NCBI GenBank assembly: GCA_947454525.1 | Contig: CANGJM010000006.1 | Span: 1 to 64,000, forward strand | Reading direction: 5' to 3' | Length of the DNA stretch: 64,000 nucleotides | From: Flavobacteriales bacterium | GTDB lineage: Bacteria; Bacteroidota; Bacteroidia; Flavobacteriales_D; Crocinitomicaceae | In this document: positions 61,045 to 61,917 of the stretch, in pieces | Layout of the letters: every line of letters starts with the position of its first letter | Numbering within the stretch: position 1 is the first letter of the stretch | Position numbers and translations under genes: made by a program | Notes under the pieces: model-generated | Database searches by the model: none | The model's input: only the letters and a program-made list of their open reading frames with translations | What the model was told of the DNA's origin: nothing

Positions 61045-61060
61045 TGTTTCACGTGGAACA
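61045..61060 (-). other. parS: parS site 1 (ParB-binding), between ybeY and mnmG
   Basis: On the minus strand the sequence is TGTTCCACGTGAAACA, identical to the classical B. subtilis-type parS. It begins directly after the ybeY stop codon and ends six bases before the mnmG ATG. A second identical copy lies 37 bp away. Confidence 0.88.
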
Positions 61061-61507
61061 TTATTTTTTTAAATCACCCAATGTTTCACGTGGAACATAT
61101 AGGTTTAAATAATAAGATTCTTTAAATCTCATTACTTCTATATCTTTCTTTGATTTATCCTTAAAACCACAGAGGTGTAGTATTCCGTGAAAAATTACAC
61201 GGTGCAACTCCTCCTGAAAAGATGTGCTTTCTTTGGAGCAATTATCTAATACTCTATCCAAAGAAATTAAGAGATCACCATTAATAATTCCATTTTCACA
61301 ATAATCAAACGTTATAATATCCGTGTAATAATCATGATTTAAAAAATCCTGGTTGACTTTAAGAAGGTATTCATCGGAACAAAACACAATCGCAATATCA
61401 CCTGAAACAAATCCTTCAGACAACACCAATGTTTTAATAAACGGTTTTAATTGGCGTGACTTTATAAACTTTGGTTTAACAACATCAACGCTATTTAAAG
61501 ATATCAT
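61061..61507 (-). CDS. ybeY: Endoribonuclease YbeY (16S rRNA maturation)
   Basis: A 148-residue metalloprotein of the UPF0054 family: [44 protein letters not shown] and [23 protein letters not shown]. The usual metal motif H-x3-H-x5-H is incomplete: the first two His are present, while the third position is Asp (FKDK). It acts in 16S rRNA 3'-end maturation and ribosome quality control. Codons 138-142 (VPRET) are written by a perfect parS site. It overlaps the upstream HATPase gene by four bases. Confidence 0.92.
61082..61097 (-). other. parS: parS site 2, inside the ybeY coding sequence
   Basis: The same 16-bp TGTTCCACGTGAAACA on the minus strand. It spans the last base of codon 137 and codons 138-142 of ybeY (VPRET). 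Same orientation as site 1, centres 37 bp apart. Confidence 0.88.
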
Positions 61508-61917
61508 TTACTGAAATAAATTATTACCTCATTTCCTACCTCGTTGAAAGAAACCTCATCAGACAAATTTTTCATTAAGAAAATTCCTCTTCCGTTTTCT
61601 TTTAATATATTCTCTGGAGCGGTGGGATCTGGAAGATTATTATAATCGAAACCTTTTCCTTGATCTTTAATTTTAAAACAGAAAGAGTCAGAAGAATCAC
61701 CTACAGCAACATCAATAGATAAGGTACGGTCTTGGTCATTTCCATGACTAATAGCATTATTTACTGCTTCAGTTACCGCAATCAAGACATTTCCAAACGC
61801 ATCTTCCTGAACACCAACAGTTTGGCACACTTTATCAACTAAATTCTCAACATCCACCAACGACTGATAGTCCGCTGGTAAGGTTATTTCCTCAATTATA
61901 TTAAATCCTTCTTTCAT
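61504..61917 (-). CDS. RsbW-like ATP-binding protein (anti-sigma/HATPase family)
   Basis: A 137-residue GHKL-fold ATPase domain alone, with no receiver or dimerisation domain: N-box AVTEAVNNAISHGN, G1-like KDQGKGFDYNNLPDP and G2-like ENGRGIFLMKNLSDEV. This is the pattern of RsbW/SpoIIAB serine kinases and anti-sigma factors. No antagonist (STAS) gene is adjacent. It sits between DUF4175 and ybeY, an order I associate with flavobacterial genomes, and overlaps ybeY by four bases. Confidence 0.88.
   Translation of the reverse strand: MKEGFNIIEEITLPADYQSLVDVENLVDKVCQTVGVQEDAFGNVLIAVTEAVNNAISHGNDQDRTLSIDVAVGDSSDSFCFKIKDQGKGFDYNNLPDPTAPENILKENGRGIFLMKNLSDEVSFNEVGNEVIIYFSK

Follow-up and report, generated by a model that had tools for sequence, protein, structure and literature searches.

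Why should two identical copies of a 16-bp near-palindrome lie at the junction of ybeY and mnmG, with one of them inside the ybeY reading frame? The window analysed here, a stretch of 64,000 nucleotides from the draft genome of a Flavobacteriales bacterium of the Crocinitomicaceae, contains both copies (Table 1). As judged from sequence comparisons, it is very probable that they constitute a chromosomal centromere (parS) that is kept beside mnmG, and that selection acting on the DNA sets the C-terminal tail of YbeY. An earlier note on this DNA had described two identical copies in the same orientation, 37 bp apart, and exact matching reproduced this arrangement (37 bp from start to start). The positions given there for the copy that forms codons of ybeY and for the copy located six bases from the mnmG start were also correct. 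The latter copy was further said to fill the 22-base gap between the two genes; it does lie in the gap, and it covers most of it (16 of the 22 bases) rather than all. This copy abuts the ybeY stop codon and spans positions -22 to -7 relative to the mnmG ATG, leaving 6 nt ahead of that codon.

Table 1 Features at the ybeY-mnmG junction of the window.
Feature	Position	Strand	Remarks
Putative parS site 1 (ybeY-mnmG gap)	61045..61060	(-)	Exact TGTTCCACGTGAAACA match
Putative parS site 2 (within ybeY)	61082..61097	(-)	Exact TGTTCCACGTGAAACA match; ybeY codons 138-142, V P R E T
ybeY, rRNA maturation RNase, 148 aa	61061..61507	(-)	TIGR00043, 83.8 bits (cut-off 45), residues 16-135
mnmG (gidA), tRNA uridine modification enzyme, 623 aa	59167..61038	(-)	TIGR00136, 856.6 bits

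The names of both genes were confirmed by NCBIfam. As judged by YbeY, two Crocinitomicaceae bins are the nearest named relatives, with identities of 84 and 83%. The start of ybeY is overlapped by four bases of an ORF for an RsbW-like anti-sigma ATPase (61504-61917, minus strand), whose score is below the NCBIfam cut-off (57.7 versus 145 bits).

Both copies match the 16-bp consensus TGTTYCACGTGRAACA of chromosomal parS exactly. The form TGTTTCACGTGAAACA is presumably identical to that of B. subtilis parS. It is also the form in which the parS consensus is given in passages of a study of gut species (PMC10197239). In the draft genome (2.83 Mb, 34 contigs) there is no match with zero or one mismatch besides the two copies. 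With up to three mismatches allowed, the window contains eight matches (palindromes being scored on both strands), compared with a mean of 1.11 and a maximum of 4 in shuffled sequences. Matches with two or three mismatches are numerous in the draft genome, and the reversed-pattern control is rich in them as well (36 forward and 51 reverse versus 14 and 23).

The genome encodes a parA-parB pair, on a different contig (C4) from that of the sites (C6, the contig of the window), and DnaA is encoded on C21. The ParB (299 aa) and a ParA-like ATPase are specified by overlapping ORFs, the latter lying upstream. ParB scores 187.5 bits against TIGR00180 (cut-off 58.45) and aligns with solved ParB/Spo0J chains (6sdk, E 1.3e-51); the NCBIfam Noc model gives 232.5, which is under its cut-off of 315. 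The NCBIfam matches of the ParA-like protein are to ParA/RepA/MinD-type models, none of which reaches its cut-off. Passages of PMC7383237 describe R173 and G201 as absolutely conserved in ParB orthologs and replaced by Q and R in Noc. By ungapped counting, the helix-turn-helix of the present ParB has R and G at the equivalents of these two positions and is thus of the parS type rather than the Noc type, and the same residues occur in the ParB of six relatives. The same ungapped counting places A at the 170-equivalent, H at 179 and K at 184. G170 is a listed contact residue (passages of PMC7383237), and the 184-equivalent K and 170-equivalent A make the match to the Caulobacter contacts incomplete. 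Each of 36 genomes tested has a ParB above the cut-off, among them all 12 genomes discussed below in which a site beside mnmG is missing.

Conservation was examined in 61 genomes of the genus, drawn from a larger group, in which a YbeY search located ybeY in 56. The other five (G108, G130, G136, G146 and G147) yielded no MnmG match either, so these assemblies seem to lack the ybeY-mnmG locus; G108, being without both genes, was rejected as a case of site loss. One of the five assemblies is rated 99% complete, and the parS locus seems to have been lost from some assemblies. Every one of the 56 ybeY-bearing genomes has a site with at most one mismatch to TGTTYCACGTGRAACA at the ybeY 3' end or just past it. 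Two sites are present in 41 of these loci, and a single site with at most one mismatch was found in the stretch scanned in the remaining 15. The mnmG start was found downstream on the stretch read in 54 loci. In 44 of them the site nearest to it begins between -21 and -27, and in the other ten at -32 or -45/-46. The distance between paired sites ranges from 24 to 50 bp in the 41 two-site loci. On the strength of this range, helical phasing of the pair was rejected, and the spacing of about 3.5 helical turns given in the earlier note is not supported.

The frame in which ybeY reads through the site differs among these loci. Frame 2 is used in 40 of the 56, giving V[SP]RET in 36, VSRGT in one and VSCET in three. 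Frame 1 occurs in nine loci, where the YbeY tail reads LFHVKH or LFHVKQ, and frame 0 in two, where the stop codon of ybeY comes from the parS-like site itself (GFT-stop); in five loci the site lies just outside ybeY. Stop-supplying sites are found in the genus (L163 and L184) as well as in a set of named YbeY loci (L116 and L120), the ending being GFT-stop or SFT-stop and the mismatch falling at the first base only. A quick tree was built from YbeY without its tail together with the MnmG N-terminus, with frames 2, 1 and 0 and the outside location as states; 14 of its 53 inner branches were drawn open and 15 rows were less than half filled. At least six changes among the four states are needed on this tree, compared with a mean of 15.1 after shuffling, and the well-supported (starred) branches alone force three changes, scored as frame 2 versus the rest.

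The codons within the site are frozen. Across the 40 frame-2 loci no synonymous change was detected in the motif codons: V is encoded by GTT and T by ACA in all 40, S by TCA in all 37 loci that have it (P, encoded by CCA, replaces it in three), R by CGT in all 37 that have it (three have C) and E by GAA in all 39 that have it (one has G). The amino acid changes either coincide with degenerate bases of parS (base 5 for S/P, base 12 for E/G) or yield the one-mismatch VSCET. As a control within the same gene, the other YbeY columns conserved in 36 loci or more were compared, leaving M and W aside; all 40 use at least two codons, with the commonest codon accounting for 32-97%, and the 97% column is a tyrosine a few residues ahead of the site. 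Going by how often these loci use each codon, the VSRET set would be expected at 0.4% and the VPRET set at 0.9%. Because the genomes are akin to one another, weight is placed on the in-gene control and on the differing frames rather than on multiplied probabilities. A relative that kept VPRET by other codons was looked for, and none was found among the 56 loci. The proposal that the YbeY C-terminus is constrained at the DNA level is borne out by the frozen motif codons and by a frame that differs while the site stays, and it is the DNA sequence, not the protein, that appears to dictate the tail.

An AlphaFold2 model of YbeY, computed with 37 aligned sequences (one from the window and 36 taken from the 55 remaining loci of the genus; mean pLDDT 91.9), places the last helix at residues 120-137 and assigns a pLDDT below 50 to residues 142-148. 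The TIGR00043 match stops at residue 135, and the site begins where the predicted fold ends (residue 137), so that the residues after 137 are specified by the site together with its flanking bases. YbeY may be able to accept a tail dictated by the site because, in this model, the folded domain stops just before it.

The association extends beyond the genus and belongs to mnmG rather than to ybeY alone. The sequence TGTTNCACGTGNAACA was found in 105 of 120 sampled genomes of the family, with no match for the reversed control, and 28 of 30 loci fetched around such sites, among the matches listed, sit at ybeY-mnmG. The follow-up of the 15 genomes devoid of TGTTNCACGTGNAACA covered the six rated 99% complete (G004, G012, G038, G082, G092 and G108), the nine less complete ones being left out; one-mismatch sites were found beside mnmG or ybeY in all of the six except G108, though the reversed control gives matches of this kind too (numbers below). 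A phylum sample of 99 genomes (loci L291-L389) was assembled by MnmG from 29 families, with uneven representation (21 genomes from f15). Flanks of approximately 0.9-1.5 kb were read, less at contig ends, so that sites farther away were not counted, and mnmG starts were estimated from alignments. A site with at most one mismatch lies beside mnmG in 87 of the 99 genomes, the reversed consensus giving no matches. Upstream sites are present in 58 genomes, downstream sites in 62 and both in 34; in one genome the site lies only inside the estimated mnmG span. At least one genome with such a site was found in 26 of the 29 families, the exceptions being f7 (0 of 2), f9 (0 of 1) and f16 (0 of 2). In the two-sided genomes of f15, one site typically begins about 18 bases ahead of the estimated start codon and the other 3-12 bases past the stop. 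Frame-1 tails are seen again in family f6 (for instance MFHVKH and LFHVEQ), and f4 has FVPREI. The named set comprises 80 YbeY loci, and in approximately 64 of them a site falls within the interval from 150 bases ahead of the ybeY stop to 2.4 kb beyond it; the count is approximate, as the stops of L068 and L075 are those of mnmG. At least one record of this set is shared with the genome samples. Across the phylum sample, mnmG is the gene to which parS is attached.

Twelve of the 99 genomes have no site beside mnmG, though all of them encode ParB. The genomes of f16 carry exact pairs on other contigs, G233 has an exact site on another contig, G241 has one about 25 kb away and G171 has a one-mismatch site 1.6 kb away. 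In G257 and G205, rated 100 and 99% complete and containing ParB, no site with at most one mismatch was found genome-wide, and the ParB target may have changed in these two. Genome-wide one-mismatch matches as such are near the chance level, with 31 forward matches and 13 for the reversed control in 18 genomes. The identification of the 16-mers as parS, made in the earlier note, gains from the presence of parA-parB, the parS-type residues of ParB and the conservation in genus and phylum.

The note had also placed the window near the replication origin, a probable location in view of the GC skew of the relatives G059 and G070 and, less closely, G134; the window's own contig shows a weak skew minimum near 70 kb, about 9 kb from the sites. 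In the single-contig genome G059, in which the stretch 1.54-1.96 Mb was fully read, the cumulative GC-skew minimum (1,757,843) and parS (1,745,808) are 12 kb apart; dnaA (base 64) and parB (4.08 Mb) are elsewhere. The skew of G070 was sampled at 20 places and flips its sign after 4.47 Mb and before the record start. At this coarse sampling parS, located at 4.347 Mb in a record of 4.551 Mb, is approximately 0.1-0.2 Mb from the switch, and dnaA and parB are at 2.465 and 1.922 Mb. G134, a 2.21-Mb draft contig from the same genus as the window, has a flat skew minimum at about 0.95-1.03 Mb. Its lowest point, 0.979 Mb, is 139 kb from ybeY (1.118 Mb); dnaA is found at 0.548 Mb, and parB is on a different contig. 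Two gaps of 10 kb each (990-1000 and 1240-1250 kb) were treated as contiguous, and the minimum precedes the first of them. In all 12 single-contig genomes in which both genes were placed, parB is approximately 0.30 Mb or more from mnmG. A search for DnaA-box clusters near the G059 skew minimum and on the window's own contig gave nothing convincing. A study of 12 gut species, of which two belong to the Bacteroidetes, reported that the origin is not always at dnaA; parS clusters and skew were used to place it, and read coverage agreed (passages of PMC10197239).

Three other explanations of the 16-mers were weighed. The two near-palindromic copies might pair in the ybeY-mnmG mRNA, and the resulting hairpin might govern the translation of mnmG or the stability of the message. 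Together they do fold to a hairpin of -16.4 kcal/mol (z -2.36), equalled by 2 of 200 shuffles, and the narrow placement of the nearest site ahead of mnmG would be consistent with such a role, though two near-palindromic copies are always able to pair and a hairpin is expected anyway. The single-site loci of the genus, however, have no stem between copies, a C/A combination disrupts the hairpin of the single site in 14 of the 86 exact sites of the genus (predicted energy 0), and 28 of the 99 phylum genomes have sites after mnmG and none before it in the stretch read. As pairing is not preserved across relatives, an RNA hairpin was rejected as the main cause, and we regard the RNA explanation as very improbable. 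An intrinsic terminator was rejected as well, since the second copy has no U-tract after it. The 16-mers might instead be the sites of another palindrome-binding regulator of the ybeY-mnmG operon, and a position just ahead of mnmG would indeed suit a repressor. Against this, the sequence fits the parS consensus, a ParB with parS-type residues is present, and the sites in relatives are also found after mnmG, inside ybeY and near the skew switch, which makes this explanation slightly less probable still.

The remaining alternative, that VPRET or VSRET is a functional peptide tail of YbeY and its resemblance to parS incidental, draws on the prevalence of V[SP]RET in the genus. It is contradicted by the different tails that the same 16-mer gives in the other frames and by the five loci in which it lies outside the gene, by motif codons free of synonymous change in a peptide that no locus recodes, and by the location of the tail after the last helix in the low-confidence end of the model. 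We consider it extremely improbable.

In the favoured explanation, that of a centromere kept beside mnmG, the parA-linked ParB encoded elsewhere in the genome would, by homology, bind the 16-mers as a dimer, load there as a CTP-gated clamp and then slide onto flanking DNA, and ParA would move the origin region to the daughter halves. ParB occupancy, spreading and a segregation role at these sites are thus predictions from homologous systems. In most of the sampled Bacteroidota the site would have stayed by mnmG, near the origin where the skew is readable, with parAB and dnaA elsewhere. Tight gene spacing beside mnmG would cause the site to overlap the ybeY 3' end in many lineages, and with purifying selection acting on the DNA and not on the peptide, the YbeY tail would be whatever the site spells in the local frame, which is VPRET here. 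The preferred distance of the nearest site from the mnmG start makes a putative effect of ParB on mnmG, raised in the earlier note, a reasonable idea. A bolder proposal, which we judge unlikely, is that mnmG is the ancestral Bacteroidota centromere address, held by selection while parAB and dnaA are elsewhere, that parS hugs both ends of mnmG, immediately ahead of its start codon and immediately past its stop codon, because ParB bound there also sets mnmG expression, and that neighbouring gene ends, the YbeY tail among them, are rewritten in any frame so that the site is kept. If true, a tRNA wobble-modification enzyme would be tied to origin copy number and segregation state. It is now testable whether ParB at parS affects mnmG, and why the centromere is at mnmG with parAB and dnaA elsewhere.

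The arrangement resembles the Spo0J/parS system of Bacillus subtilis and the ParB/parS system of Caulobacter in the 16-bp consensus, in a ParB of the same family with the R173 and G201 equivalents, in the ParA-like ATPase encoded beside ParB and in the probably origin-proximal location in relatives. Unlike in those systems, parAB is away from parS (on another contig here, and with parB distant from mnmG in all 12 single-contig genomes), and in each of the three relatives studied dnaA is far from the point at which the skew switches. Because of this separation of dnaA from the skew switch, mnmG-linked parS may serve as a practical origin marker for Bacteroidota drafts. Neither a phylum-wide parS address at mnmG nor a frame-hopping ybeY overlap is described among the open-licence literature matches listed; the parS survey of Livny et al. 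2007, the likeliest to list Bacteroidetes parS positions, may mention some. In Bacteroides caecimuris, likewise a member of the Bacteroidetes, the parS cluster goes with the origin domain as seen by Hi-C; the passages of that article leave the genes flanking parS unnamed, and its main text does not contain the word mnmG (PMC10197239).

Location of parS inside genes is already known: according to passages of the respective articles, nine of ten predicted parS sites of P. aeruginosa are inside coding sequences (PMC4368675), and parS-359 of B. subtilis lies in parB (PMC4442127). As in those cases, a putative centromere site doubles here as coding sequence. The present locus differs from them in keeping one address, at which the end of the overlapped gene is read in any of three frames, one with a stop codon supplied by parS. 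It would provide a clear natural case of selection on DNA dictating a protein sequence, in which a single 16-bp site is read in three frames, one of them giving a stop.
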